From positions 1-24,568 of IMG/VR virus record IMGVR_UViG_3300048033_000561: DNA of 24,568 nt, one strand, 5' to 3'. The position numbers were made by a program, and so were the translations under genes. The notes below the pieces were generated by a model that saw only the letters and a list, made by a program, of their open reading frames with translations, did not search any database and had not been told where the DNA came from. Positions 3,561-24,568 of the stretch are shown piece after piece (within the stretch, counting starts at the first letter, position 1; every line of letters starts with the position of its first letter). The stretch comes from a virus.

Positions 3561-3885
3561 TTTGCATCCTATTTTGAATAAGGCCAGGTTTCTTATTGGC
3601 CAAGTGAGTTAAATTATGTTTTTGTAAAGTACTTCTTAACTCATCACCATATTGCTCTGCTCGTCTAAGATTTACACTTAGCTCTGAGTTGAGCTCATTT
3701 AATCTACTGTTTTCTGATCTTTCAAGTACAAGTGAAGCTTCACTGGTTTGAACAGCTACTTCCATTCTTGCAACATTAGCCCTAGCGATTTCTAGGTCGT
3801 CTCTCATTTTTTTAACATATAGTCCACCAGATACTACTGCACTGGATATAATAAAAACAGCTGCTATTTTAATAGATGAAAACAC
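3463..3885 (-). CDS. Inner-membrane spanin (i-spanin, Rz-like)
   Basis: 140-aa protein with one N-terminal transmembrane segment (about residues 5-24) followed by a long periplasmic coiled-coil-like region (about 27-95, rich in E, L, R and S), the standard i-spanin layout. The start is GTG at 3885: GGAG lies six bases upstream, whereas the ATG two bases earlier is out of frame. The C-terminal third overlaps the o-spanin lipoprotein gene. Together they should make the spanin complex that disrupts the outer membrane after endolysin action. The genes lie at the end of a late transcription unit, which fits timing for lysis. No endolysin is seen in the window. Confidence 0.82.
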   Translation of the reverse strand: MFSSIKIAAVFIISSAVVSGGLYVKKMRDDLEIARANVARMEVAVQTSEASLVLERSENSRLNELNSELSVNLRRAEQYGDELRSTLQKHNLTHLANKKPGLIQNRMQNATDQLWNDLAGITDPDGVQLDEAGTEDSNSN

Positions 3886-6706: not shown

Positions 6707-7048
6707 TTAACACTTCCATCTCTTCAGTGACATAGCTTTCCGTGTAGGTCTGCCTTTATCATCTTTCATAGGGCCTTTCATTCCGCTCATACGAGCACAG
6801 AATGACTTACGTCTACCTGCAGCTTTACTGCCCGGCTTGACTTTACCAGTGACAGCAGTTTTAAGGTTTCCGCCAGTTTTTCTATTAACTGCAGCGACAC
6901 CTTTTGCCGTCATCCCAGCCCCCTTTTCGGTGCTTCGATAATGTCCTTTTGAATCAGCGCCTCGCTCGTTAACGCTATTCTCACACTGTTGGCAACAAGC
7001 GTCTGTTCCACAGTTAGGATGTTCTAGAAATAATTTAAAACTTTTCAT
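6707..7048 (-). CDS. DUF6321-like Cys-rich basic protein with capsid-targeting-like N-terminus
   Basis: 113 aa from the ATG at 7048. An upstream in-frame ATG at 7078 exists, but GGAGG sits seven bases before 7048 and inside the preceding gene's last codons, so 7048 is preferred. The N-terminus MKSFKLFLEH resembles the capsid-targeting sequences in this operon. It is followed by a cysteine cluster (C13, C18, C19, C22 in CGTDACCQQC) that could bind a metal. The rest (STEKGAGMTAKGVAAVNRKT, LKTAVTGKVKPGSKAAGRRKSFCARMSGM, ending RWKC) matches what I remember as the DUF6321 family of phage proteins. Function unknown; the strong positive charge suggests nucleic-acid binding inside the capsid. Confidence 0.8.
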   Translation of the reverse strand: MKSFKLFLEHPNCGTDACCQQCENSVNERGADSKGHYRSTEKGAGMTAKGVAAVNRKTGGNLKTAVTGKVKPGSKAAGRRKSFCARMSGMKGPMKDDKGRPTRKAMSLKRWKC

Positions 7049-7049
7049 A

Positions 7050-7496
7050 TTAACCTCCAAACTCGTGACCGGCAACACGCTTCATTTGCCGATTAAATTC
7101 TGCTTGATCTGGCTTTGACTTATAAAGCTTAATAGAAATCTCAGATCGATCTTTCCCTTTGATACGCCAATTATAACCCTTTTCTTTATGCTCAGGGTCT
7201 GTTGTCTTTATAACACGACGTTTATATCCGGCTTCCCATGATTCTGGTTTACCGGTACCTTCTTTAATTTCTGGTTTTTCGTGACCATATCCCATTTTTT
7301 TCATACGTAAATGGTCAGCTTCTTTTTCAGCTTTATAACCTTTACCAGTTTTAGGATCATACATCATATGTGGAGTAAATGCTTTCTTCTCACGCATTGC
7401 ATGAAAATCAGCTTTGCGCTGTTCTTCTTTACCAGCGTTTTTAGACCATCTACCACGTGCACGGTGATACATCTTTTGTAATTCAGTCATCCTCAT
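7050..7496 (-). CDS. Basic protein, unknown function
   Basis: 148 aa, rich in K, E, H and M, with the segment MMYDPKTGKGYKAEKEADHL that I recall from other marine phage proteins. The C-terminal part (EISIKLYKSKPDQAEFNRQM) may form a small alpha/beta unit. The start at 7496 overlaps the polyprotein stop as ATGA; a second ATG at 7490 is also possible but has its GAGG too close. It is translated with the cargo genes on both sides, but has no capsid-targeting-like N-terminus of its own. Confidence 0.72.
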   Translation of the reverse strand: MRMTELQKMYHRARGRWSKNAGKEEQRKADFHAMREKKAFTPHMMYDPKTGKGYKAEKEADHLRMKKMGYGHEKPEIKEGTGKPESWEAGYKRRVIKTTDPEHKEKGYNWRIKGKDRSEISIKLYKSKPDQAEFNRQMKRVAGHEFGG

Positions 7497-8881
7497 GATC
7501 GCACTTTAGCAGCAAGATCTTTGTCTGCTTTGCCCCATGTTCCAGATGATTTAGTAACAAATGAATTAACCCGAGCGAATCCCCATTGCTGTGGAGTTGT
7601 ACCAGGCCGATGACCAGTTTTCCATGCAGCAACACCACGATTATAAACTTGTCTTAGAATTCCAAGGGGCATACCAGATTTTTCAGCTTTTGCTTTTAAA
7701 CCTTTAGTTGCATCTTCGTCTAATGTTTCGTTGTATTCGCTAAATGATTTCATTTCTTCACCGTACATTTGTTGGTATTTTTTAGTATGCTTAGATGGTT
7801 TGGTTTTTGCATCTTTATCGCCAGGTGCTGGTTTATATGCATTAGGATCATCATCGTCCATTTTTGCTTGTTTCTTAAACTGTGCATCTCGTTTAGCTTT
7901 AGTAGATTTAGCAAGACCCTTATGATAATTAGCTGGCTGAGAACCTTTACGATCGCCGATATCAGGATCTTCAGAAGCTTCTTTTGGTACACAATTTGGA
8001 ACTTGTTTACCATTCTTGGTTTTCATTCCAACTTGTTTATGGGTATCCCAACATGCTTCATCAAGTTTTTCGATGTCAGTTAACCACTTACGCATTTTCT
8101 TACCGTCAGCCATTTCGATCAGCACATAGTTAGATCCCAGCATAGAAACCGTTCCGACTTCATCTGATTCCTTAATTGCAACGAGATCTCCTAGTTCAAA
8201 TAATTGTCCTTGAACATAGGCTTCTCGTTCTTCTGACACTGTTTGCAATTGTATGTGCTGACGGTAATCATGGGATTCTTTAAGTCCCATGGCGGTACGC
8301 AAATCATTAAATAATTGCTTACCATCTTTAAAGTTTTTAGGTAGACCTTTAGTGAATAGACTGAAATCATTTGCTTGTGCAGCAGCTCTCATCTTAGAAG
8401 CTGACATTCCAGATACACCTTCTGCATCAGGATCACGCTCACCAGCAGAGATTACATTAACTCCACCTTCAAAGTTATAGAAACCATGACGGCCTTTTTT
8501 AGCATTGTACCTACCAATCAATGCTTCGAACTCATTAACACGATCTGATCCAACAACCATATTGACACGGTTATAACCTTGATCGTATATCTTTACAAGA
8601 ATATCAAATACATTTTTGACAGATTTATCTAATTGAATTGATCGCGCATGACGTGGGAACATCTTGCGCATATACTTAACTTTATTATTATAGTCTAATG
8701 GATTCTTTTTTGCATCGTTAGACTGAGAAGCGAATACCATATATTTAGATCCGCGTGCAACCTTAGCTACAGCGTCTAACAGCTTCTCATGACCTACTGT
8801 AGGAGGATTAAATCTTCCGAAAGTAAAGGTAATTTCTTTTGTGGCTTCAGTGACATACTCACTAAATGACTTGAACGACAT
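7493..8881 (-). CDS. Capsid-targeted polyprotein: nucleotidyltransferase + SH3/KOW-like + DUF5824-like
   Basis: 462 aa with several modules. Residues 1-12 (MSFKSFSEYVTE|A) look like a capsid-targeting sequence. Residues 16-200 are a cytidylyltransferase/NMNAT-like domain with the nucleotide-binding motif FGRFNPPTVGH (H31 of TVGH) and a C-terminal SASKMRAAA motif like the ISxTxxR of that superfamily. Residues about 229-270 resemble a small SH3/KOW barrel. Then come KLDE|ACWDTHKQVGMK, a basic linker, a second internal MKSFSEYNETLDE|DA (377-391), and a C-terminal DUF5824-like segment (VYNRGVAAWKTGHRPGTTPQ...). The LDE|A and LDE|D sites fit the (L/I)xE specificity of T4 gp21 prohead protease. Domain assignment is confident for the nucleotidyltransferase and moderate for the rest. 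Substrate unknown (NMN, CTP-alcohol or other). Confidence 0.85.
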   Translation of the reverse strand: MSFKSFSEYVTEATKEITFTFGRFNPPTVGHEKLLDAVAKVARGSKYMVFASQSNDAKKNPLDYNNKVKYMRKMFPRHARSIQLDKSVKNVFDILVKIYDQGYNRVNMVVGSDRVNEFEALIGRYNAKKGRHGFYNFEGGVNVISAGERDPDAEGVSGMSASKMRAAAQANDFSLFTKGLPKNFKDGKQLFNDLRTAMGLKESHDYRQHIQLQTVSEEREAYVQGQLFELGDLVAIKESDEVGTVSMLGSNYVLIEMADGKKMRKWLTDIEKLDEACWDTHKQVGMKTKNGKQVPNCVPKEASEDPDIGDRKGSQPANYHKGLAKSTKAKRDAQFKKQAKMDDDDPNAYKPAPGDKDAKTKPSKHTKKYQQMYGEEMKSFSEYNETLDEDATKGLKAKAEKSGMPLGILRQVYNRGVAAWKTGHRPGTTPQQWGFARVNSFVTKSSGTWGKADKDLAAKVRS

Positions 8882-10490: not shown

Positions 10491-11479
10491 TATATTACCT
10501 TAGTATTTCTATTTTTAAGTGCTGTACCTTTTGCAACTATAAAGAATCTAGCTCCTGGAATTCCAAACTGGTTTTTAGCTTGCTCTGGTCTCACATAGTA
10601 ATAACACTCGTAATCGTTTTTAGGCAATTCATTATGATATTGTGTATGATTTGAAGTAATTGTGTATATAGGAATACCGTCTTTTACTCCAGATCTTTTA
10701 AGGTTCATAGGACCTTGATATAGAACATCGATGTTTTGACGGCCGTCTGGCTTTGACTTAAACCCTTTACCATACATTGTCATACGTATAATTTTAGGAT
10801 CAGTAACTTTACGTGCATATGCAGTCTTCATAGGAAAGCGTTTAGCGCCATTAAGTTCTTTTACCACGGCATCTACAAAACTAAACATATCTTTTGATTT
10901 AGTATTCTTTAGCTCAGGCATGCCACCATACTGTTGGAAGTCATTTGCCTTATTACCCTTTTTATGAGAAATCCAAAATACTTCTTTTCCTTCTGGATCA
11001 AGCATATGGAAGTCTGATTTAGGAACACCAGGAGTAGATTCAATAGCAGCAACACGTTCAGTACGCTTACCTATTTTTACTAGAATAAAAGGTACTGTTT
11101 CTTTATCGAATACTGCTTGAAGTTTTTTCTTTAGATCTGCTAGTGCTTCATCTTCTGCACGGGTGCCTGATCCTTTACCCTTACCACCAAATTCTGGAGA
11201 TTTAGCCAGATCTGCTAATTGATATTTTTTGCCGTTGACACCAGTAAATTCAATGGCATTCATTGCCTTTTTATTACCATCTCTAACAGCTGTACGATAT
11301 GTTTCTAGGGAATTATCTTTTCTAAGAATAACAGTATCACCTTTCATTGTAAGAAATGGATCTCCGTCATTAATTTTGCGAACAATATTTTCTGCTCGGC
11401 CTTCTCTGCCGGGCTTTAACAATTGTTCTCCAGATAGTTTTACATACATTTCTGAAATAAACCCTTTGAAAGTAAGCAT
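10490..11479 (-). CDS. Capsid-targeted protein, possible PD-(D/E)XK-type nuclease
   Basis: 329 aa. MLTFKGFISE|M lines up residue for residue with T4 internal-protein capsid-targeting sequences (pattern M-x-T-aromatic-x-x-F-I-x-E) and ends in an IxE site. Mid-protein, an acidic helix (RAEDEALADLKKKL, 108-120) is followed by SDFHML (D156) and a strand VFWISHKKG (S171-H-K173), then DFQQYGGMPEL. Spacing and context resemble a PD-(D/E)XK nuclease core with a changed second acid, but this is a weak fold guess. It is the first gene after a strong late promoter and therefore the operon's lead cargo protein. Similar sequences occur as hypothetical proteins in marine T4-like phages. Confidence 0.8.
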   Translation of the reverse strand: MLTFKGFISEMYVKLSGEQLLKPGREGRAENIVRKINDGDPFLTMKGDTVILRKDNSLETYRTAVRDGNKKAMNAIEFTGVNGKKYQLADLAKSPEFGGKGKGSGTRAEDEALADLKKKLQAVFDKETVPFILVKIGKRTERVAAIESTPGVPKSDFHMLDPEGKEVFWISHKKGNKANDFQQYGGMPELKNTKSKDMFSFVDAVVKELNGAKRFPMKTAYARKVTDPKIIRMTMYGKGFKSKPDGRQNIDVLYQGPMNLKRSGVKDGIPIYTITSNHTQYHNELPKNDYECYYYVRPEQAKNQFGIPGARFFIVAKGTALKNRNTKVI

Positions 11480-14846: not shown

Positions 14847-15032
14847 CTATTTATTCAAGGGTAAAATTTCAGTAGACATATTATCATGGTAATCACCGCT
14901 TTCATAATATCGTCGACTTACTGTAGTAATCTTTACTCCAGCATCTACTTCTTCATATGTTATAATTTTACGTTTTATAGCTTTTTTCGGCCTGCGATTT
15001 GCTTCTGCAGTAAAAGGTCCTTCGTCATTCAT
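14847..15032 (-). CDS. Small unknown protein
   Basis: 61 aa, basic N-terminal half (RRPKKAIKRKIITYEEVDAG) and a polar C-terminus. The start overlaps the helicase stop (ATGA). No recognised family; probably translated with the helicase. Confidence 0.66.
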   Translation of the reverse strand: MNDEGPFTAEANRRPKKAIKRKIITYEEVDAGVKITTVSRRYYESGDYHDNMSTEILPLNK

Positions 15033-16408
15033 ACTTTAAAATCTCCATAATCTTTCTTTTCTCTGTTACCAAATGTATTTATTGGCGCAGAATCTTGACC
15101 CGCGTCAGATATATTCTGTGCAGAATCTTCTACATCATACAGTCGCATCTTTGATCTATCAACTCCAACTATAAATCTTTTGTTAATACCAGGATCATTA
15201 TAACGATTTTTAAGCTGCTTAACAAGTATTTGATTTAGTCCTTCGAGTTCTTCGTTTGAGATGAGAGCAAACATAAGATCGGCTGTAGCAGGTAATCCGA
15301 ATGACTCAGACGTGTCTTCGAGACCGACATCACTCGATCCATATCCTGTTCTAGTTGTCTGAGTCGCTGATACAACGGGCACGTTGTATTCGACTGCAAG
15401 TCCGCGAATCTCTTCTGCAATAGATTTGATGAGGGAATACGTATTGACACCGCCACTTAATCCTTTTATACGAGACGATGCACAGATGTTCAAGTAATCA
15501 ATAAATATAATATCCGGTGCAAAGTCTTTTTTGAGTTTAAGTTCATTGAGCAATGCACGGAAATGGCCGACATGCGCAGAACCAGTTGGATATTCTTTAA
15601 TAATCAATTGGCCTGAAGTCTTGGATGCGATCTTGTTTACTTTATTATGAAACATATCTTTCGATAGATTTTCAAGTTGATCAATAGGCACGTTAAACAA
15701 GTTAGCATCAATACGTTCAGCTATTCTTTCTTCTGACATTTCCATGGTCAGATAAAGAACGTTTTTACCATCGGTCAATGCACCAGCAGCACAGTGACAC
15801 ATATATAAAGATTTACCAACACCGGTACCAGCAAGGGCGATGTTTAGGCTTTTCTTCGGTAAACCACCTTTTGTAATAAGATTAAACTTATCAAGATCAA
15901 AAGGCAATTTTTCTTCAGCAGTATGATAAAAGTCATACCGAGCATCAGCGTTACCGACATAGTCGTGGCCGATGTTAGTATCGAATGAAACAGCAAGAGC
16001 GTCAGATAAGATTTCAGGCAAAGCATTCTTTGTCTGTTTCTCATCACGACCATCAATAATTTCAATCGACTTCATGATGGCAAGATAGATTGCTCGATCC
16101 TGACACCACTTTTCACATGATTCAAGGAGCCAACCCATATCATCTGGGACGAACTCCTTAATACTATCTACAACTTCATGAGCTTGAATATGTGTTTGCT
16201 CAGGAAGATTAGCGTTATCTAATTCAATAGACAACGCTTCAGGGGTTGGCAGTTTGTTATACTTACTAACAAACTTTAATATTTCATCAAATACGAACCG
16301 CTGTGCACCCTCAAAATATTCTTTCTTTAAGAAAGGAATAGTTTTACGGGTAAACTCATCATTGGTTAATAGGTTCCGCAGAATCGTTGTCGGTACGTTT
16401 GCTATCAT
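15029..16408 (-). CDS. Replicative DNA helicase (T4 gp41 / DnaB family)
   Basis: 459 aa from the third ATG of an ATG triplet (16408), chosen because AGGA is seven bases upstream; 16414 is the longest frame. The RecA-like core has Walker A AGTGVGKS (about 193-200), the adjoining ETMEMSE-like segment (LTMEMSEERIAERI), Walker B IIFIDYLN (about 300-307), and SATQTTR (347-353) as motif H4. The N-terminal 150 residues are the helical DnaB/gp41-type domain. It should form the hexameric 5'-3' helicase at the phage fork. Gene position, just after uvsX, matches T4. No gp61 primase is seen in the window. Confidence 0.95.
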   Translation of the reverse strand: MIANVPTTILRNLLTNDEFTRKTIPFLKKEYFEGAQRFVFDEILKFVSKYNKLPTPEALSIELDNANLPEQTHIQAHEVVDSIKEFVPDDMGWLLESCEKWCQDRAIYLAIMKSIEIIDGRDEKQTKNALPEILSDALAVSFDTNIGHDYVGNADARYDFYHTAEEKLPFDLDKFNLITKGGLPKKSLNIALAGTGVGKSLYMCHCAAGALTDGKNVLYLTMEMSEERIAERIDANLFNVPIDQLENLSKDMFHNKVNKIASKTSGQLIIKEYPTGSAHVGHFRALLNELKLKKDFAPDIIFIDYLNICASSRIKGLSGGVNTYSLIKSIAEEIRGLAVEYNVPVVSATQTTRTGYGSSDVGLEDTSESFGLPATADLMFALISNEELEGLNQILVKQLKNRYNDPGINKRFIVGVDRSKMRLYDVEDSAQNISDAGQDSAPINTFGNREKKDYGDFKV

Positions 16409-16709
16409 CATCATTTCCTATCTTATAATTACCACTGTCAAAAGCATCTTCTAAAATGTTTTGCAATACTTTACCTATATAGTCTTGAAAGGCAGGATTC
16501 TCGGCAAGATCTTCATCACCTTCAATTAGCGTCCACATAAAGTTTAGCCTTGCAATACCATCTTCATCATCATTGATTTCTTCAATCTTAGCGCTTACTT
16601 TACCATATTGATACTTAGTACCAGCCCAATCGCCGGTAGTAAGCTCAACAGTATAAAAGTCGTCATCAGCACGTTCAACGAATTTATAATCATTTGTGGT
16701 TACATTATA
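16359..16709 (-). CDS. Unknown acidic protein overlapping uvsX and helicase genes
   Basis: 116 aa if started at GTG 16709, which has GGAG seven bases upstream and overlaps the uvsX stop by five bases. A longer frame from 16760 would sit inside uvsX without a Shine-Dalgarno. The protein begins MYNVTTNDYKFVERADDDFYTVELTTGDWAG-like strands and ends in a very acidic tail. Its 3' end overlaps the helicase start by about 50 bases. I recall similar small proteins beside uvsX in marine T4-like phages. In T4 this slot is gp40, but no resemblance to gp40 (a membrane-associated head-assembly protein) is visible. Confidence 0.72.
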   Translation of the reverse strand, partial: YNVTTNDYKFVERADDDFYTVELTTGDWAGTKYQYGKVSAKIEEINDDEDGIARLNFMWTLIEGDEDLAENPAFQDYIGKVLQNILEDAFDSGNYKIGNDDDSKRTDNDSAEPINQ

Positions 16710-17778
16710 CACTGGTTGTCTCCGATTGTACATCGCTAAATACATCAACATCTTCACCAAGCATTGATTTTAATCCAATGGTATAATGAGACTTAATGTA
16801 TTCTTTGAGATTAGTTTCTGCGAAGATAGGTTCCCAGAACTCTTTAGTCAGTGTTTCTTTCTCACGGCATTTAGGATCTTCAAGGACACCAGTTTCTTGA
16901 TTAACTCTACAATACCATCCATTAGAAGGTTTAGCAACAAAGTTACCATGCATTGCAATATCAAGTAAACCACTGTAACGTTCAATACCACCATCCCATG
17001 TTACAGATACCGGAATCTTAGATTTCTCTTTAACAAAACGTGATTTCTCAACATTGATAATAAAGTTATAACCTTTAATCTCTGTACCAGTCTTTTGTTG
17101 TTGACGACCAAGAATCCAGATGTTATCAGCTGAATAGTAAATACCTGTACCACCACCAACGATATCCTTTGGAAACAAACCAATCTCTTTGTAAGTATGA
17201 TTGATAGCAAGTAAAGGGATATTCTTCATTGTAAGATATGGCGTAACCATACGGAACAAACCTTTGAGTGCTTTTGCACGAGACATATCAGCAACTGATT
17301 TCTCATTAATAGCATCTTCTAATTCTTTCTTAGAAGCAAGGTTACCAATAGAATCGATTACGATAATTACACGATCATCTTTCTCAATAGCTTCAAGTTG
17401 AGATACTAGATCAAACTTAAGCTTTTCAACATCAGTGATAGGTGTATGCAAGATACGTGATGTATCAATGCCAAATGATTCGAAGTATGTTTGAGGTGAA
17501 CCAAACTCTGAATCATAAAATAACATAATAGCATCTTTGTGCTTGTTCATATATGCTGCTGCCATAAGCAAAGCAAATGAAGTCTTAAAGTGCTTTGATG
17601 GACCAGCAAGGACCGTTAGCCCAGAGCCTAGACCACCATCAGGATCGCCTGATAGAGCCACATTAATCATTGGGACTGGCGTACTTGCAAAGTCCTGTTG
17701 TGAGAAGATCTTCGAGTTAGCAAGGATGTCTGTACCCTTGATTTTCGAATTCTTCTTTAGTCTATCCATTACAGACAT
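16705..17778 (-). CDS. uvsX: UvsX, RecA-like recombinase
   Basis: 357 aa, T4 UvsX family. Strand-exchange protein for recombination-dependent replication and repair. Walker A is the unusual GPSKHFKTS (59-67) typical of UvsX, and Walker B is VIIVIDSIGNLAS (137-149). Also present are LFYDSEFGSPQTYFESFGID and the ILGRQQQKTGTEIKGYNF segment. The start has AGGAG seven bases upstream. An early-type promoter lies just upstream, at the end of the 341-aa gene. It begins the uvsX-(small)-helicase-thyX unit. Confidence 0.97.
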   Translation of the reverse strand: MSVMDRLKKNSKIKGTDILANSKIFSQQDFASTPVPMINVALSGDPDGGLGSGLTVLAGPSKHFKTSFALLMAAAYMNKHKDAIMLFYDSEFGSPQTYFESFGIDTSRILHTPITDVEKLKFDLVSQLEAIEKDDRVIIVIDSIGNLASKKELEDAINEKSVADMSRAKALKGLFRMVTPYLTMKNIPLLAINHTYKEIGLFPKDIVGGGTGIYYSADNIWILGRQQQKTGTEIKGYNFIINVEKSRFVKEKSKIPVSVTWDGGIERYSGLLDIAMHGNFVAKPSNGWYCRVNQETGVLEDPKCREKETLTKEFWEPIFAETNLKEYIKSHYTIGLKSMLGEDVDVFSDVQSETTSV

Positions 17779-17807: not shown

Positions 17808-17836
17808 ATTATACCATAAATTCATCGAGTTGTACA
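17808..17836 (-). promoter_or_regulatory. Early-type sigma70 promoter for uvsX
   Basis: Minus strand: -35 TGTACA (17836-17831), 17-base spacer, -10 TATAAT (17813-17808), TGG extension. It overlaps the last codons of the upstream 341-aa gene. Confidence 0.88.
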
Positions 17837-18834
17837 CCCTTTTCTGGCGGTGTACCTTGTCTTTGTTCCCATCCTGATTCCCAGCCTGAAGCATTCATCA
17901 GGTCTGCAGATACGTGATCAAATGTACCATTACCACGAGGTACATAGTTTTGACCAAAGCGAACAAAGTCACACATCACATCTTCAAGGTCTTTTGCTTT
18001 TCCACCGGTACGTTCTACCAGCAGGTTCATAAAGTCGTCTGGTTTCCACCCTGTTGAGAGCCTTTTCATACAGCGGACAGCATTGTTTCCTAAATAGGTA
18101 TGGCTATCTACATTAACATATTGAGGGAAGTAATCAGAGCAATCCATAGAAAAGGCAGCGTACACGAAATTAAATTTTCGGTGGCCTACTTCTTTGTTAT
18201 AGCCATTAAGATAATCAACAATATCTTTATGACCACGGGTTTCCTTTTGTAACCATTCTGTGAAATTATTTATCAAAGTTGGTAATTCACGCGTCATAAA
18301 ATCTACATTAGATGTACCTTTTTTTGGCGCAGGTGGTTGGTTGCCAATGGATGTGAACATTGACTTCCCTTGCTTTTTATTGAATACAAGATCGTTTGCC
18401 ATCTCATCAATAGTTTCAAATCTACCCCAGAATTGTATTACATTATTACGATATCCATGATCATTTTCGAATGACGCACCTGATCCCATAATCCTATGAC
18501 ATAAGAATACATATAACCAGGTTTTTAAATTCCATTGAATAGAATCATTTGATTTGTTAAGTGCACGGCGTTCTTCATTCTGCCATCGCCATTTTGGAGT
18601 CTTAGATCCAAACCATAAGTCTTGAAGTACATTAGAGAAACCAGCAGCATTACGAGTATAGCAATCATATATGTCAATAGTCTGCATTAAAGGATCATTG
18701 ACAGCTTTATCAGCTTCATCACATTTATAATCTAGATTTCCCCAGTTTACATTCTCTTGTAACCATTTAGCACGAGGATAATAGTATTCCGAGAATACAT
18801 CTAAAGCTTCTTCATTCAGCCACTGTTTTTTCAT
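17809..18834 (-). CDS. Possible amino-acid:DNA transferase / aGPT-Pplase-type enzyme in the base-modification cassette
   Basis: 341 aa, mostly helical, with strongly patterned segments likely to be catalytic: YTRNAAGFSNVLQDLWFGSK (59-78), RIMGSGASFENDHGYRN (114-130), IGNQPPAP (163-170), DCSDYFPQYVNVDSHTYLGN (231-250) and GGKAKDLEDVMCDFVRFGQNY (277-297). The last two recall HhH-glycosylase-related proteins called aGPT-pyrophosphorylases or amino-acid:DNA transferases in thymidine-hypermodifying phages, but I cannot confirm membership from memory. The overlap of 23 bases with a PLP-enzyme-like gene and nearness of dCMP hydroxymethylase support a DNA-modification role. Alternative: a nucleotide-metabolism enzyme of an unrelated helical family. 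Function is inference only. Confidence 0.62.
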   Translation of the reverse strand: MKKQWLNEEALDVFSEYYYPRAKWLQENVNWGNLDYKCDEADKAVNDPLMQTIDIYDCYTRNAAGFSNVLQDLWFGSKTPKWRWQNEERRALNKSNDSIQWNLKTWLYVFLCHRIMGSGASFENDHGYRNNVIQFWGRFETIDEMANDLVFNKKQGKSMFTSIGNQPPAPKKGTSNVDFMTRELPTLINNFTEWLQKETRGHKDIVDYLNGYNKEVGHRKFNFVYAAFSMDCSDYFPQYVNVDSHTYLGNNAVRCMKRLSTGWKPDDFMNLLVERTGGKAKDLEDVMCDFVRFGQNYVPRGNGTFDHVSADLMNASGWESGWEQRQGTPPEKGVQLDEFMV

Positions 18835-19717
18835 TCTTCACCCAATCTCTATATGAATCAATTCGATCGTATATAGTTTCATCTTCTAATACAGGTTCCG
18901 CACCTACATTCCAGAACAAGATATCTTTATCACTGTTCTTAGGTATATACTTCCACACCTTACCGTCATATGTATCGATATTAGGGAATGGCGGAAGGTT
19001 TTCTTTTTTCTCTGATGCAGTAAATGCAAGAGGTTCTGATATCGGTTCTGCTACACCAAGTTCACCAGCTTTCATATTGCGTGATACACAAACAGAAGTA
19101 AACTTGGCATTAGGCCAAGCTATTTGAAGTGCCCGTGTGAGCACGCCCGTGGACGTGGCCGTATAGACTTCATCTGGTTCTTCTATATTTTCGTATGCTA
19201 CCTTTACAATACCAGCGGTTACTAATTCATGTTTTAATCCTAACGGAACAAAGAATGCATTAGGATGAGCATCAGCCCACTTCTTCGCAATCAAGTTTAA
19301 GTTAGGCATTGCTGCAATACGATGGAATTCATATTCACATCCACGTTCTATACAGCAGGCCTGATGCATTGATATACGTTTAGAAGAAGGCATGAATAGT
19401 CTTACCTTCTTACCATGTCGCTTTGCTACATCAAGCAGAGAAACACCAGCAAGACCAGTACGAGGTTGAACATAAACAATGGTATCAATATGATCAGGGA
19501 GCGAAGAGATGAGACAATCACCCCCGCGGACTTTGCTACCAACCAAGTCATCATCCCTGACAACCCTAATACCATCATGAACGGTAATACGAGGTACAGG
19601 ATTAGGATCTTCCCAATCATAAGCAAGGTAAAGAAATTCATCTCTAGCATCTTCAGCTGTATATAAAGGTCCGACATCTTTATTCACTCCATCAATTATA
19701 TGTTTATTATGCGCCAA
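18812..19717 (-). CDS. PLP-dependent fold-type-II (tryptophan synthase beta-like) enzyme homologue
   Basis: 301 aa from a TTG start (19717) with GGGGAG nine bases upstream. VRDDDLVGSKVRGG (53-66) resembles the Schiff-base lysine region of ACC-deaminase, threonine dehydratase and cysteine synthase proteins (candidate K62). VYVQPRTGLAGVSLLDVAKRHGKKVRLFMP corresponds to the next strand-helix, but the usual SxGNxG Asn that contacts PLP is absent (PRTGLAG). YTATSTGVLTRAL resembles the phosphate-binding loop. So fold is likely, chemistry uncertain. It overlaps the SGNH-like gene by 11 bases and the 341-aa gene by 23. In thymidine-hypermodifying phages PLP enzymes process amino acids attached to bases, and a parallel role is plausible here. 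Confidence 0.72.
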   Translation of the reverse strand: MAHNKHIIDGVNKDVGPLYTAEDARDEFLYLAYDWEDPNPVPRITVHDGIRVVRDDDLVGSKVRGGDCLISSLPDHIDTIVYVQPRTGLAGVSLLDVAKRHGKKVRLFMPSSKRISMHQACCIERGCEYEFHRIAAMPNLNLIAKKWADAHPNAFFVPLGLKHELVTAGIVKVAYENIEEPDEVYTATSTGVLTRALQIAWPNAKFTSVCVSRNMKAGELGVAEPISEPLAFTASEKKENLPPFPNIDTYDGKVWKYIPKNSDKDILFWNVGAEPVLEDETIYDRIDSYRDWVKNEKTVAE

Positions 19718-20681
19718 GTCCGGTTACTCCCCAATCGTTTCTTCTATAAAATGGCGGAGCAATATGGAAAGAAGATCCATGCTCCATATAGGTTTTAGCA
19801 TATGTTTCAGGATTCATAGTATACCATTCTTCTGGTGGCATAACAACAGATCCAGCTTGTTTGTGCAATTCATCAATAAACCTATTTGTCAAATCATGAC
19901 GTTCTTGCCATGATCCATAGAATGGTTCTTTCTTGTAGAACCCAGATTTAGGTATACGTCTTTCCTCGAACTCAACTGGAACTGGAGCAGCAAAGAATAC
20001 TTTACAATCATACATGGTCTCCAAAGCTTTACCTTGAGTTACATACTCCCGAATAAAGTTTTTAAGAACAAAATCATTGTGTCGTAATATATGATGCCGA
20101 ATATCAATAGAACCCAAACATAAAGTGATTGTACCAAACGGAGTAACTCCTCTGAGGAGAGACCGAATGCCTGCTTTAAGCGCCCCGTGTAAAGTTTTGC
20201 CATCGTTACGAAACACCATATCATTACGGTGGCTAAAAGAGCTTGTATGACTGTCACCAATTGTCATTCCTTTCATTTTAAGATTTTCTTGTTTCATTGA
20301 AGAAACAGAGGACAATCTTGAACTTAGTCGGTCACACCATTCTTCAGTTATGCCTTCGTATGTGGTATTAGCACCAATACGTTTCTTAAGCATTTCGCCA
20401 TAATTCGGCATATCATGATCAAGCGAAATAATATCATTACAAGAAGCAATGAGATTAATACGGTCAAAAACCTCTTTAGTTGCTCCACCAAAAAGATTTA
20501 ATGTTCCACCGAAGTTTGCACCGTGATCAATATAAACCCTATCATATGATTTTACCTTAGGTGTGCACTTATGGTCAATACAAGATCCTAATTGATCTCG
20601 CCATATTTGTGTCCAGCCATGTACATGAGATTTCTCATTAACAGGTATATTAGATATTGGATTTGTAATCACAGAATTCAT
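19707..20681 (-). CDS. SGNH/GDSL-like hydrolase or acyltransferase
   Basis: 324 aa from the ATG at 20681 (GGAG six bases upstream); a longer frame from 20702 is less likely. GMTIGDSHTSSF (near residue 140-150) matches SGNH block I, CLGSIDIRHH resembles the block III strand, and SSFHIAPPF near the C-terminus carries a possible catalytic His. The N-terminal 100 residues (YIDHGANFGGTLNLFGG..., SLDHDMPNYGEML) are of unknown fold. SGNH proteins remove or transfer acyl groups; in this neighbourhood it may act on a modified base or a precursor. It overlaps the dCMP deaminase by 32 bases. Confidence 0.68.
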   Translation of the reverse strand: MNSVITNPISNIPVNEKSHVHGWTQIWRDQLGSCIDHKCTPKVKSYDRVYIDHGANFGGTLNLFGGATKEVFDRINLIASCNDIISLDHDMPNYGEMLKKRIGANTTYEGITEEWCDRLSSRLSSVSSMKQENLKMKGMTIGDSHTSSFSHRNDMVFRNDGKTLHGALKAGIRSLLRGVTPFGTITLCLGSIDIRHHILRHNDFVLKNFIREYVTQGKALETMYDCKVFFAAPVPVEFEERRIPKSGFYKKEPFYGSWQERHDLTNRFIDELHKQAGSVVMPPEEWYTMNPETYAKTYMEHGSSFHIAPPFYRRNDWGVTGLGA

Positions 20682-21129
20682 ATTCAACTCCAGCTTCTTC
20701 AAATATTGATTTGCTTAATGCCCAAGAATCTTGCCAATTAGCAGGTATCTCTTGAGAGGGCATTACTATTTTTTTGATTCCTACTTGGACGATGCCTTTA
20801 GCACAATCAGAACAGACAGGAAGACCAAACACAAATAAAGTTGATCCATGTAAAGATACTCCGTTATATGTAGCATTGTAGATGACATTCATCTCAGCAT
20901 GTACTACTAGTTTATATTTAGTGGGTCGATCATTATATCGATCCTCGGAGTCATTAACTCCACGTGGGAAACCATTGTAGCCTTGAGATAAGATTTGGCC
21001 TTTATCTCCAACTGCAACAGATCCTATTTTACTTGAAGGATCTTTAGACCAACTTGCTACTTGTTCAGCAAGTTCTAAGTATCTATTGTTCCATTTATTT
21101 GACAAGATCGAAATGCCTTTCATAGACAT
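20650..21129 (-). CDS. cd: dCMP deaminase
   Basis: 159 aa. Zinc-dependent conversion of dCMP to dUMP, feeding ThyX. The zinc site is clear: HAE (H77, E79) and PVCSDCAKGI (C106, C109). SKDPSSKIGSVAV and QGYNGFPRGVND are typical of phage and bacterial dCMP deaminases. The N-terminus overlaps the hydroxymethylase gene by 35 bases. The chosen ATG (21129) has AGGTAA upstream; a start six bases later or at a TTG near 21103 cannot be excluded. Deamination competes with hydroxymethylation for dCMP, so both enzymes together set the ratio of dT to hydroxymethyl-dC. Confidence 0.93.
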   Translation of the reverse strand: MSMKGISILSNKWNNRYLELAEQVASWSKDPSSKIGSVAVGDKGQILSQGYNGFPRGVNDSEDRYNDRPTKYKLVVHAEMNVIYNATYNGVSLHGSTLFVFGLPVCSDCAKGIVQVGIKKIVMPSQEIPANWQDSWALSKSIFEEAGVEYEFCDYKSNI

Positions 21130-21787
21130 GTAAGTTCATTACCTGCCATGTTAGCATACCTTTTTCAATAGGTGCTTTTTCATGCACATAAGCTAGTGCA
21201 TTGTAATCATCTACAACTTTATCCATAAGATGTTGGGCCCAAGCATAATCGTTCTTATAACCGAATACTACATCATTAGAACGCATTTGCGATACCATAT
21301 GTAATACATTATCACGAATATAAAATGTTTGAGCATTCGTACAAATGAAATCAGACTTACCATTCTCATCGAATTCAGTCCAGATAGATGGACGATTGTA
21401 TACCATCTGAGCACGACGAGAATCAGGGTTTTGCCATAGTTCTTCTAGTGCACGCTCATATTGAGAATAATACTTTTCTGAAAATACTAAATGACCATAG
21501 TTAGAATTAATATTGCCATCATCATCTGATGCATATTGCCATGCTACAGGTGGTTGTCTACCTGGACCATAAATATCAAGGATATTAGTAGAACGTGACT
21601 CATACCATTTAATCTCTGCATCGATGTATTCTTGTACTGGTGTGCCGAAGATAGCAGGTTCGCTTGCAATAAAGTTTGCACCAATCATTTCGATAGTCTT
21701 TTGACCAGTCTTATCGATAGTAAATGCTTCATCAGCAAGTTCACCGATGAAGAACTCTCGAATATCTTTTACACTATACATTAGCAT
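21095..21787 (-). CDS. 42: dCMP hydroxymethylase (T4 gp42-like)
   Basis: 230 aa (T4 gp42 is 246), thymidylate-synthase superfamily. Similarity to T4 gp42 is evident throughout: DKTGQKTIEMIGANF, INSNYG, QNPDSRRAQMVYNRPS, SDFICTNAQ with the nucleophile C149, MRSNDVVFGYKNDYAW, and LHVYERHF. D180 in KNDYAW replaces the Asn that selects dUMP in thymidylate synthases and matches the T4 residue that selects dCMP. It makes hydroxymethyl-dCMP, so phage DNA probably carries 5-hydroxymethylcytosine or a derivative. GGAG seven bases before the ATG; TAATG overlap with the preceding gene. Confidence 0.94.
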   Translation of the reverse strand: MLMYSVKDIREFFIGELADEAFTIDKTGQKTIEMIGANFIASEPAIFGTPVQEYIDAEIKWYESRSTNILDIYGPGRQPPVAWQYASDDDGNINSNYGHLVFSEKYYSQYERALEELWQNPDSRRAQMVYNRPSIWTEFDENGKSDFICTNAQTFYIRDNVLHMVSQMRSNDVVFGYKNDYAWAQHLMDKVVDDYNALAYVHEKAPIEKGMLTWQVMNLHVYERHFDLVK

Positions 21788-22104
21788 TACTCATCTCCTA
21801 CTTCATAGCGATCATCCATATGAATATGGCCATCAGACATATGAGTCATAAGAATCATAAGCTGAGTAGATGCATGTGCAAGATGGCTTAGGCCAGATTC
21901 AGGATCTAGATCTTCACCAGACCAGAATGCATTTAAGTGACGTTGAATAGATGAGTATGTACGAGACCACTCAGTGCTATCGCCATCATCACGCCAGTTA
22001 TTAGGACCATACTTGTTAGCACCGAAGCCGAGTACTTCAGCAACCTGATTGATAGCATCGACAGGAACTAAAGCTAAAGGGGCTTTGCCATTATCATATT
22101 TCAT
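21787..22104 (-). CDS. DUF5664 / dATP-dGTP diphosphohydrolase N-terminal-like protein
   Basis: 105 aa. The pattern KYDNGKAPLALVPVDAI...VLGFGANKYGPNNWRD...WSRTYSSIQRHLNAFWSGEDLDPESGLSHLAHASTQLMILM is the phage family I know as DUF5664, related to MazG-like all-alpha nucleotide pyrophosphohydrolases (the S-2L MazZ type). It probably hydrolyses a dNTP or a modified dNTP precursor. It is the first gene of the unit with dCMP hydroxymethylase, driven by the promoter at 22134. Substrate unknown. Confidence 0.85.
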   Translation of the reverse strand: MKYDNGKAPLALVPVDAINQVAEVLGFGANKYGPNNWRDDGDSTEWSRTYSSIQRHLNAFWSGEDLDPESGLSHLAHASTQLMILMTHMSDGHIHMDDRYEVGDE

Positions 22105-22564: not shown

Positions 22565-23487
22565 AATTGATTCTCCATAATATATGATATTGCACGTTCA
22601 GCTTCAGTGTCAAACGCTCTATTTTTGTACCATCCGCCAGTATCTCGATCGAGCTCTTGACACATCATCACCAATTCTTGTGACGTGATGGGATATTTTT
22701 TACTTACTGCATTACCAGCTACGGATACCATAAATGAATACATTTTGGCATACCAACCAGTCTCACTAATTGCATTGTATTCAGCAATCATTCTACGACT
22801 TACGAATGGGCAATCAGTATATGAAGTCCATGAGTAGTTTGTATTAGTTAAACCATTTGCTCTATATTGCATGATAGCCTGCTTCATTGATTCGGGCATA
22901 CCGTCAAATATAGTCTTGGCTTTCTCAGGCATAGGATGCCTGCTTATAAGGAGCATAGGATCGATATGATTACCAGGATTACTGAATATAAAGTTGTTAG
23001 CGTTATTATACGTCGCTGGAATGTAATACATTCTAGATAAGTCTTTAGTCTGCTTATCTCCGATTGATCCGAGCTCGCTATTGAGTGCCCACCAAAATCT
23101 TTTGATATCAGCCACTGCAACCTCTGATGTAAGTGGGAAGACAAGCCTGAACTTCGGTTTTTCCAGCGTACTACTAGCAGTACTATAGCAAACGTAACAG
23201 AAATCTCCAAAGCTAGTACGTAGTTCATTTTCTAAATCTCCTTTAAAATCATGGTCATCAACATCTACTGCAGCCCATCCACCCCAACCAGTTACATTTT
23301 TATTAGCACGCGTTGTGCCTTTAATGTAACTAGCAGGGGAGATAAGTTGGGCTGACTTTTTATCCTCTAATTTTTGCTTAGACAGTTCATACAACAAAGC
23401 CTCGAACTGTTGCCAATTCGAGAACTCCATAGACTTTTCAGTCTTATTGTCGTATATACTTTTAAACAGCGTTAGGGAAGTCACCAT
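22561..23487 (-). CDS. Archaeo-eukaryotic primase (AEP)-like protein
   Basis: 308 aa. Visible AEP-type motifs in order: DxD-like AAVDVDDHD (D75, D77, D78), a strand YSTASST (101-107) at the place of the usual STHSS motif, KFRLVFPL (112-119), and DLSRMYYIPA (149-158). This arrangement is that of small phage and plasmid primase-polymerases, with the catalytic-motif His replaced by Ala. A helical domain follows (about 190-308). It may prime replication or initiate it, which is notable because no gp61-type primase lies beside the helicase gene. AGGA precedes the ATG; it overlaps the MazG-like gene by 26 bases. Confidence 0.74.
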   Translation of the reverse strand: MVTSLTLFKSIYDNKTEKSMEFSNWQQFEALLYELSKQKLEDKKSAQLISPASYIKGTTRANKNVTGWGGWAAVDVDDHDFKGDLENELRTSFGDFCYVCYSTASSTLEKPKFRLVFPLTSEVAVADIKRFWWALNSELGSIGDKQTKDLSRMYYIPATYNNANNFIFSNPGNHIDPMLLISRHPMPEKAKTIFDGMPESMKQAIMQYRANGLTNTNYSWTSYTDCPFVSRRMIAEYNAISETGWYAKMYSFMVSVAGNAVSKKYPITSQELVMMCQELDRDTGGWYKNRAFDTEAERAISYIMENQL

Positions 23488-23872
23488 GGTTTCCTTCGTG
23501 TGTAGGTGATGTCCACCCTTCTGGTTTCATTAGATCTGGTAAACCCCATGGGTTTGGCCGCTCTTCTTTAACACCAGGTTCTTTTGCCATATTAGCTTGA
23601 TATACACGGTTCCATGCTTCATTAGCATCAACACCAAATACATCAAGTGTACCAATAGCAAATACACACATATCAATAAGACCATCAACGATCTCTTCTG
23701 AATCACCGGCATTCATTGCATCGAATGTTTCGGTTACTTCTTCTTGACACATATCTAATCGAAATTTAAGGTATTTCTTCATTAGATCTTTATCATCTTT
23801 GTTCTTTTTGAACCAATCCTTTACACCAAACTTGTGATGCATCATGTGGATATCATGTGCCCAATCTGTCAT
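23462..23872 (-). CDS. MazG-like nucleotide pyrophosphohydrolase (all-alpha NTP-PPase)
   Basis: 136 aa from the ATG at 23872 (GGAG six bases upstream); a longer frame from 23884 would leave almost no leader after the promoter. Acidic metal-binding pattern CQEEVTET (E48, E49 and E52 in the longer numbering) and EEIVDGLIDMCVFAIG (D67, D71) fit the MazG/dCTPase/dUTPase all-alpha superfamily, and WNRVYQANMAKEPG is the typical closing helix. In a hydroxymethyl-dCTP-using phage, a dCTP pyrophosphatase is needed to keep plain dC out of DNA (T4 gp56), so dCTP is a plausible substrate by inference. Confidence 0.85.
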   Translation of the reverse strand: MTDWAHDIHMMHHKFGVKDWFKKNKDDKDLMKKYLKFRLDMCQEEVTETFDAMNAGDSEEIVDGLIDMCVFAIGTLDVFGVDANEAWNRVYQANMAKEPGVKEERPNPWGLPDLMKPEGWTSPTHEGNHGDFPNAV

Positions 23873-23900
23873 GTCTTTCTCCATTTTCTATTATGTTATA

Positions 23901-23929: not shown

Positions 23930-24183
23930 CCATTATTTTCAAGTATAGTATCTATTATAGGATCTACATTTACTACTGTAATTACAGCATTATCGGCATA
24001 TGGATTCCTATACAACGCAAAGTAATGCGAACCATATTCTGGATGTGCATCCTCACGGTGGAATATATCCACGTGATAATCAGCAATCTTAGTTAGTTTA
24101 GTAGTACATATGTATTTTACTACAGTACCATGCTTATTGCTATATTCTTTTTCAGTCTTTGCTGTATCAAACAATGGTGTCAT
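23902..24183 (-). CDS. Small unknown protein
   Basis: 93 aa, predicted beta-rich ([39 protein letters not shown]). ATGA overlap with the DNA polymerase stop; its last codons carry the next promoter's elements. No family recognised. In T4 the gene following 43 on this side is different (imm region). Confidence 0.7.
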
Positions 24184-24568
24184 CCAAAGAAATCCTCTAG
24201 TGAGATTCTAGGTTCCGGTGACCAGCCAATCGCATCAAGGATTGGGATGATTGGATCTAGAAATGTCTTTTCGAATTGTTTATTGTAATCAATGTACTTA
24301 TCAAGCTGAAGCTCAGGCGCCAAATACGTTGGAAATGACACTACATTCTCACGAATAGGATTCGGAAGTTTAAGATAACAAAACTTAATCTTCTCGCCAT
24401 TCTGAATCAGTTCATACTTCTTCTCGAGGCTTGCTGCTTTAATATGATAGTTATATAGCAAAGCCCCACGTACGTGTATGGGTGTGCCTTTTGCATATAT
24501 GCCATCACGCTTACGTGCCCACTTGCTAATATCATTTACACCACGAGGGAAAGCAACCTGTTCAGCTG
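24180..24568 (-). CDS. 43: Family B DNA polymerase, C-terminal end (partial; T4 gp43-like)
   Basis: The last 128 residues of the polymerase; the gene enters from the right edge. I translated beyond the first possible internal start and found [12 protein letters not shown], then [16 protein letters not shown], matching the thumb region of T4-like gp43 (KxP-x-H-x-R-G-x-L-x-Y-N). The tail [23 protein letters not shown] and SLEDFFG resembles the T4 C-terminus, where the final residues (SLFDMFDF) bind the sliding clamp; ISLEDFF is therefore a candidate clamp-binding motif. Catalytic domains lie outside the window. Confidence 0.93.

Follow-up and report, generated by a model that had tools for sequence, protein, structure and literature searches.

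A conserved gene cassette beside dCMP hydroxymethylase in T4-like phages and its probable role in cytosine hypermodification

What is attached to 5-hydroxymethylcytosine (hmC) in phages that encode a dCMP hydroxymethylase and carry other genes where T4 has its glucosyltransferase? For thymine, the hypermodification of phage DNA with amino acids is established, and the known hmC derivatives bear sugars or carbamoyl groups. The question is raised by a 24,568-base virus fragment from IMG/VR (record IMGVR_UViG_3300048033_000561, positions 1 to 24,568; this whole stretch is called the window), in which the slot of the T4 beta-glucosyltransferase gene (beta-gt), between gene 42 and uvsX, is occupied by genes for an SGNH protein, a pyridoxal phosphate (PLP)-dependent enzyme and a protein of 341 amino acids (aa). 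Our results favor the interpretation that these genes form, with the hydroxymethylase, a cytosine hypermodification cassette, and we consider it probable that hmC is acted on by the SGNH protein, receives an amino acid from the 341-aa protein and is trimmed by the PLP enzyme. All long genes of the window lie on the minus strand; those of the cassette are listed below.

21095..21787, minus strand: dCMP hydroxymethylase of the T4 gp42 type, 230 aa, from its profile against T4 gp42 and conserved residues
20650..21129, minus strand: dCMP deaminase, 159 aa (PF00383, 8.1e-18; phrog_174, 4.8e-43)
19707..20681, minus strand: predicted SGNH protein, 324 aa from the likely ATG, or 331 aa if the TTG at 20702 is the start; from its AlphaFold2 fold and conserved residues
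18812..19717, minus strand: PLP-dependent enzyme of predicted fold type II, 301 aa, starting with TTG, its conserved N-terminus being MAHN; from phrog_7093 and hhalign
17809..18834, minus strand: 341-aa protein with a predicted DNA-glycosylase (HhH) fold; from AlphaFold2 and Foldseek

Consecutive genes overlap by 32 bases (deaminase and SGNH), 11 bases (SGNH and PLP) and 23 bases (PLP and 341-aa). To place this arrangement among related loci, queries of increasing breadth for the 341-aa gene were run against IMG/VR, and they returned 131, 437 and 516 relatives; 94 relatives of the PLP gene came from an IMG/VR scan, and contigs of bacterial metagenome-assembled genomes held the 341-aa gene at seven loci. 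A scan of IMG/VR for the SGNH gene alone yielded just eight loci, as short peptide patterns of this protein are poorly conserved, and SGNH counts were therefore taken from the neighbourhoods of the 341-aa gene. From 154 distinct loci we retained as count base the 64 deduplicated ones with at least 4.5 kb on either side of that gene. The SGNH gene was present in all 64, the hydroxymethylase and PLP genes in 62 each, the dCMP deaminase in 55 and uvsX in 49. Module genes were co-stranded in every locus (median span 4.6 kb), and in most loci the PLP gene adjoined the 341-aa gene, the putative transferase identity of the latter being structure-based only. Internal order varied: hydroxymethylase-deaminase-341-aa-PLP-SGNH-uvsX, hydroxymethylase-deaminase-SGNH-PLP-341-aa-uvsX and hydroxymethylase-341-aa-PLP-SGNH-uvsX all occurred, among others. 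Clustering that persists despite such reshuffling argues for a module, and is a strong sign of a joint function of the hydroxymethylase, SGNH, PLP and 341-aa genes.

The linkage of the three genes with the hydroxymethylase is not chance. When the neighbourhoods of homologues were compared, as the initial annotation had advised, relatives of the three genes did not prove common in phages lacking base-modification genes, the hydroxymethylase standing alongside in 62 of the 64 loci. Of the two loci without a PLP gene, L293 encodes a PLP homologue at another place on its contig, and L302 is a near-identical 20-kb fragment; for the two loci without a hydroxymethylase, L299 (a 14-kb fragment) and L343, none was found elsewhere in their records. 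The carriers are mostly aquatic T4-like phages. We regard the dCMP deaminase as a gene of nucleotide supply, and as a frequent neighbour rather than an invariant member of the module.

Cytosine is strongly indicated as the substrate base. A family profile of 30 relatives of the hydroxymethylase matched T4 gp42 (1b49) at E 2.6e-98 and thymidylate synthases only at about 1e-14. The catalytic C149 is invariant (30/30), as is D180 (T4 D179), which replaces the thymidylate-synthase Asn and marks dCMP as opposed to dUMP enzymes. Judged by its sequence the protein is a genuine dCMP hydroxymethylase, with gp42 and not thymidylate synthase as its nearer relative, and it is because of the gp42-type profile together with the invariant dCMP-type Asp and Cys that we take the modified base to be cytosine.

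The 341-aa protein is proposed, from its modeled structure, to be an amino acid:DNA transferase acting on hmC. Its AlphaFold2 model (33 homologues, pLDDT 87.7) is all-helical. A Foldseek search of BFVD placed three uncultured-phage proteins on top, at 1e-13 to 1e-14; one of them, A0A6J5L8T5 (E 1.4e-13, TMq 0.79), was the top named match, its annotation being 'Amino acid:DNA transferase domain-containing'; a second amino acid:DNA transferase, the SP10 5-hydroxymethyldeoxyuridine (5-hmdU) DNA kinase, aGPT-PPlase clade 1 and a HMUDK helical domain matched more weakly. Among solved structures the model resembled AGOG 8-oxoguanine DNA glycosylases (Z up to 9.7). At the sequence level the protein belonged to no Pfam, NCBIfam or PADLOC family, its sole PHROG match was marginal (E 0.094), and 32 relatives produced chance-level matches only against Pfam. 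It did not match the Pfam models ADDT (PF18724) and HMUDK_hel (PF18723) or the aGPT-PPlase model, scans of 12 related contigs with ADDT and HMUDK_hel gave nothing at the cassette, and tblastn with this protein and with a distant relative found no match among phage isolates. The test for the amino acid:DNA transferase family thus fails on sequence models and passes on fold, and we therefore claim a functional resemblance to that family and not membership of it.

Residues E284, D285 and C288 are conserved in the 341-aa protein.

Two further observations concern this gene. In L302 a stop interrupts it (6992-8143), and it is intact in the near-identical L293. Beside it, in 21 of the 64 full loci, stands a further gene of 329-341 aa that is absent from the window (for example L037 5196-6188, L299 7093-8079 and L343 6680-7702) and bears motifs such as HEDQLCWFSKF; its match to the 341-aa profile is weak (hhalign prob 38.6).

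The PLP protein connects the cassette with phage M6, where gp51 contains the Pfam amino acid:DNA transferase (1.4e-46), the PLP protein gp52 follows directly, and gp53 (radical SAM), gp54 (5-hmdU kinase) and gp55 (an HMUDK_hel protein) lie downstream. The best family of the window protein was phrog_7093 (9.3e-30), and hhalign aligned it with the gp52 family over 220 columns (prob 96, E 3e-9). In its own family the Schiff-base Lys62 is invariant, and the S-T-G loop (an S-x-G phosphate loop) and the C-terminal motif PPFP..YD.KAW..FWN are conserved; the Lys and the C-terminal motif are common to the proteins of M6, Erythrobacter phage R6L and Microcystis phage Mae-JY30. By Lys, phosphate loop and C-terminal motif it is a fold type II PLP enzyme of the gp52 type. 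M6 is reported to make 5-aminoethyl-dU by means of a PLP decarboxylase (Lee et al. 2018, 2022), and by analogy we propose that it acts as a decarboxylase or tailoring enzyme on the attached amino acid. Elsewhere the same type of domain keeps different company: in R6L (L004 4936-7356) it is inserted in a fusion of ParB and an N6/N4 DNA methylase, and in Mae-JY30 (L005 5992-6699) it lies beside two ParB/sulfiredoxin genes, contexts suggesting another PLP-dependent DNA modification.

The step of the SGNH protein is the least certain of the cassette. It has two domains, an N-terminal one (residues ~10-140) that appears beta-gt-like and a C-terminal one of SGNH esterase/acyltransferase type (~142-326). 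In its AlphaFold2 model (pLDDT 90.7), residues 135-326 matched SGNH/GDSL folds at Z of about 10.6-12.7, PatB O-acetyltransferase among them, and Ser151, Asp200 and His313 are conserved in 133-134 of 134 sequences, with G149-D150-S151 as block I. By modeled fold and catalytic residues the C-terminal domain is a member of the SGNH/GDSL hydrolase superfamily. No protein scored over the Pfam Lipase_GDSL cut-off, a single distant relative reaching E 0.047, and PDB profile searches with the SGNH alignments returned nothing. Decarboxylase-like PDB matches of the model, from rank 7 onward and with a TM of about 0.2, were dismissed as chance.

The N-terminal domain may explain how hmC is recognized. 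A scan with the T4 beta-gt family picked up the SGNH protein at scores below cut-off, as did PF09198 in 5 of 16 relatives (best 0.0016) and phrog_7922, a beta-glucosyltransferase family, in 4 of 16 (best 0.0013); the SGNH protein of the window itself matched neither PF09198 nor a beta-gt PHROG. Compared directly with T4 beta-gt, the N-domain reached an hhalign score of 41.5 (prob 80.5, E 1.3e-5), whereas 100 column shuffles peaked at 20.7 and no unrelated family exceeded 16.6. The C-terminal half did not match T4 beta-gt, its place being that of the UDP-glucose-binding domain, which SGNH replaces. The aligned segment centers on N-x-F-G-G, in T4 beta-gt N70-F71-F72-G73-G74, where it has a base-flipping role, and an Asp near T4 D100 occurs in 109 of the 134 SGNH proteins. 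From these sequence comparisons we hold, with moderate confidence, that the N-domain is an hmC-DNA-recognition domain like the acceptor domain of T4 beta-gt, joined to a new catalytic domain and still seated in the beta-gt slot.

Relatives of the SGNH protein also occur in the Aeromonas phages 44RR, 31, 25 and their kin, which encode gene 42 and have no glucosyltransferases (PMC2993671); the SGNH-bearing genomes found outside the module (44RR, 25 and one 194-kb contig) all encode a gp42-type enzyme. In 44RR, ORF233c (L002 5007-7394, 795 aa) fuses SGNH to a C-terminal HMUDK_hel-like segment (E 0.0036), a fusion that ties SGNH and transferase-type folds together, and by its sequence this protein is a candidate to account for the so far unexplained modification of hmC in 44RR. 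In phage 25 (L003 2776-6047) two open reading frames (ORFs), one UDP-galactopyranose-mutase-like and one glycosyltransferase-like, precede the SGNH gene.

The pathway that we propose would begin with hydroxymethyl-dCMP, made by the gp42-type enzyme and incorporated in phage DNA in place of deoxycytidine (dC). The SGNH protein would engage hmC in DNA through its beta-gt-like N-domain and act on the hydroxyl; the 341-aa protein would then attach an amino acid to the flipped base at its 5-methylene carbon; and the PLP enzyme would strip the carboxylate from this amino acid or trim it in another way, so that a 5-substituted dC bearing an amine remains. Gene content, families, folds, conserved residues and tight linkage are observed, and from them we infer the catalytic steps past the hydroxymethylase, their order, the amino acid used and a protection against restriction. 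By analogy the pathway may resemble that of M6, with cytosine as its base and another enzyme for activation or finishing. That no kinase was found makes it attractive to assign the activation to SGNH, yet a finishing step would suit SGNH almost equally; acyl activation of hmC is our leading, though tentative, choice, final capping or deacylation being almost as likely. In its most specific form, a kinase-independent route in which a beta-gt hmC-recognition domain carries an SGNH acyltransferase, the 341-aa protein exchanges the ester for an amino acid, the PLP enzyme decarboxylates it and the SGNH relatives also account for hmC in 44RR and 25, the proposal is doubtful.

Several points weigh against the proposed pathway. 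The 341-aa family gave no significant hhalign alignment with the M6 gp51 family (prob 2-7) or with HMUDK_hel, and as there is no significant sequence-profile similarity to transferases, its assignment is structural, drawn from the BFVD match and the annotation of that match. In the PDB, the fold search with its model returned AGOG only, at no E below 0.001, and the solved transferases 8z2m (a glycinyltransferase) and 25qc were not among the matches; the lack of 8z2m is not in itself evidence against the assignment. No 5-hmdU kinase scored over cut-off in sets of 12 and 14 large related records, several of them incomplete, and the thymine-type activation step therefore has no visible counterpart.

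That hmC carries something other than glucose, probably an amino-acid-derived or acylated group, had been suggested in the initial annotation, and is supported by the fold of the 341-aa protein, the M6-related PLP enzyme and the esterase/acyltransferase-like SGNH domain. Searches for glucosyltransferases agree with it: neither AGT nor beta-gt above cut-off was found in the window or in 13 large related records, some possibly incomplete, and the weak beta-gt matches that we inspected (G018 at 3601, and those in relatives tested with Pfam) came from the N-domain of SGNH. These results bear on an alternative in which hmC is glycosylated, with SGNH as a diverged glycosyltransferase or sugar de-acetylase and a host or phage glycosyltransferase encoded elsewhere. 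The beta-gt-like N-domain and the sugar-related neighbours of SGNH in phage 25 would suit it, yet the C-terminal domain is of the SGNH and not the UDP-sugar-binding type, and the PLP and 341-aa proteins would be left unexplained; we find it improbable. A less remote, though still unlikely, alternative is that the cassette esterifies hmC, the SGNH protein being the main enzyme and a beta-gt derivative, and the other two supplying or tailoring the donor, so that the product would be acyloxymethyl-dC rather than amino-alkyl dC. The SGNH gene is the most constant member of the module, it occurs without 341-aa and PLP genes in the hmC phages 25 and 44RR and in the 194-kb contig, and its two-domain architecture would fit such a reaction. 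However, the DNA-binding DNA-glycosylase fold of the 341-aa protein would be odd in a donor-making enzyme, and the PLP protein groups by homology with PLP proteins of DNA hypermodification.

It could also be supposed that there is no modification pathway, the 341-aa protein being a glycosylase for repair or for attack on host DNA, the PLP protein an enzyme of auxiliary amino-acid metabolism and SGNH an unrelated esterase. Among solved structures the 341-aa model fits AGOG glycosylases best, and phrog_7093 is labeled threonine dehydratase. The conserved physical linkage of all three genes with the hydroxymethylase speaks against this view, as do the closer BFVD matches of the 341-aa model to hypermodification enzymes and a PLP protein that falls below the PALP cut-off and shares its motif with M6 gp52 and the methylase-inserted domain of R6L. 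No defence-system model of PADLOC matched either, and we consider this view very improbable indeed.

The amino-acid pathway can be compared with known systems. Like M6, the window combines a gene for a DNA-glycosylase-fold protein, here a putative transferase, adjoining an M6-type PLP gene with a thymidylate-synthase-family hydroxymethylase; the M6 base is 5-hydroxymethyluracil, whereas here it would be hmC, no kinase or HMUDK_hel family member was found here and SGNH is present instead, and the 341-aa protein lacks a detectable sequence-profile relation to gp51. 5-NedU was confirmed for the M6 phage group in a 2025 paper (PMC11946847). With T4 the cassette shares the hydroxymethylase, the slot between 42 and uvsX and the beta-gt-like N-domain; it differs in having SGNH where beta-gt has its UDP-glucose-binding donor domain, and in two extra enzymes of other chemistry. 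A 5-hydroxymethylcytosine carbamoyltransferase makes 5-carbamoyloxymethyl-dC (PMC8670742), and there too hmC from a thymidylate-synthase homologue is modified further by linked genes, with thymidylate-synthase, dCMP-deaminase and MazG-type neighbours (PMC8670742); that system uses a single carbamoyltransferase (PF02543/PF16861) in contrast to the PLP, SGNH and DNA-glycosylase-fold enzymes found here. CmoX/CmoY likewise put an amino acid on cytosine C5 of phage DNA, as 5-carboxymethylcytosine-glycine (PMC12783734), by an in situ carboxymethyltransferase and an amide ligase, unrelated enzymes that need no hmC intermediate (PMC12783734). Cytosine pentosylation is another related chemistry (PMC12838424). 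Carbamoylation, carboxymethyl-glycine and pentosylation (PMC8670742, PMC12783734, PMC12838424) all proceed without the enzymes of this cassette. The Aeromonas phages 44RR (ORF233c) and 25 (ORF225c) have the same SGNH family and gene 42 and lack glucosyltransferases (PMC2993671), but their SGNH gene is far from gene 42 and without a PLP or 341-aa partner, and in 44RR it is fused to the HMUDK_hel-like domain.

Whether and how hmC is decorated in gene-42 phages without glucosyltransferases was posed as a question in 2010 (PMC2993671), and the module offers candidates for an answer. A pathway with a decarboxylated amino acid is known for thymine and was not found for cytosine in the literature we reached, and the cassette may have been predicted earlier elsewhere. 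If chemistry bears out the proposed pathway, its product would add a new base to those known in DNA, and the combination of a gp42-type hydroxymethylase with an amino-acid-transfer-type module predicts it for numerous T4-like phages not yet in culture (one IMG/VR scan found 516 relatives of the 341-aa gene). Under the kinase-independent route, amine-bearing cytosines would be present genome-wide in widespread, mostly aquatic T4-like phages. Bases of this kind matter for escape from restriction, for resistance to CRISPR and for sequencing marine viromes, and new enzymes specific for hmC would be useful as reagents.

The surroundings of the cassette can be read against the T4 map. On the minus strand the order is the C-terminus of a gp43-like polymerase, five small genes, hydroxymethylase, dCMP deaminase, SGNH, PLP, 341-aa gene, uvsX, a 133-aa gene and helicase 41; the T4 annotation (NC_000866) gives 43, imm.1, imm, 42, b-gt, segA, uvsX, 40, 41. 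The order first described for the window (43, 42, deaminase, SGNH, PLP, 341-aa, uvsX and 41) is thus correct, with the nuance that five genes part 43 from 42: a 93-aa gene, a MazG-like gene, a 308-aa primase-like gene, a 139-aa gene and the N-domain of a dATP/dGTP diphosphohydrolase. Three overlapping genes do fill the beta-gt slot, as had been claimed; that they are wholly of a different kind does not stand, as the SGNH protein appears to retain a beta-gt-like N-terminal domain. The flanking genes are as follows.

24180-24566, minus strand: gp43-like DNA polymerase, of which only the C-terminal 128 aa lie in the window, from sequence character
23462..23884, minus strand: MazG-like nucleotide pyrophosphohydrolase, from sequence character, possibly a dCTPase; relatives in 56 of the 64 loci
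21787..22104, minus strand: dATP/dGTP diphosphohydrolase N-domain gene, 105 aa (PF18909, 1e-30); in 16 of the 64 loci
16705..17778, minus strand: uvsX recombinase (phrog_97, 3.6e-90), at the edge of the beta-gt slot
15029..16414, minus strand: DnaB-like helicase, gp41 (phrog_19, 3e-126)

Megablast of the window against phage isolates gave no match. In related contigs, weak kinase and ADDT matches were rejected, as they belonged to the clamp-loader gp44 and to a P-loop kinase encoded among the head genes. A conserved P-loop kinase ORF (L196 1414-2100 and L197 1405-2085, both minus strand) matches the 5-hmdU kinase weakly and looks like an unrelated kinase of the structural region. Within the window, several minus-strand ORFs (starts at 11479, 10490, 8881 and 7048) have short hydrophobic/acidic N-termini (MLTFKGFISE, MSFKSFSEYVTEA, MKSFKLFLE), whose sequences resemble T4 capsid-targeting sequences.

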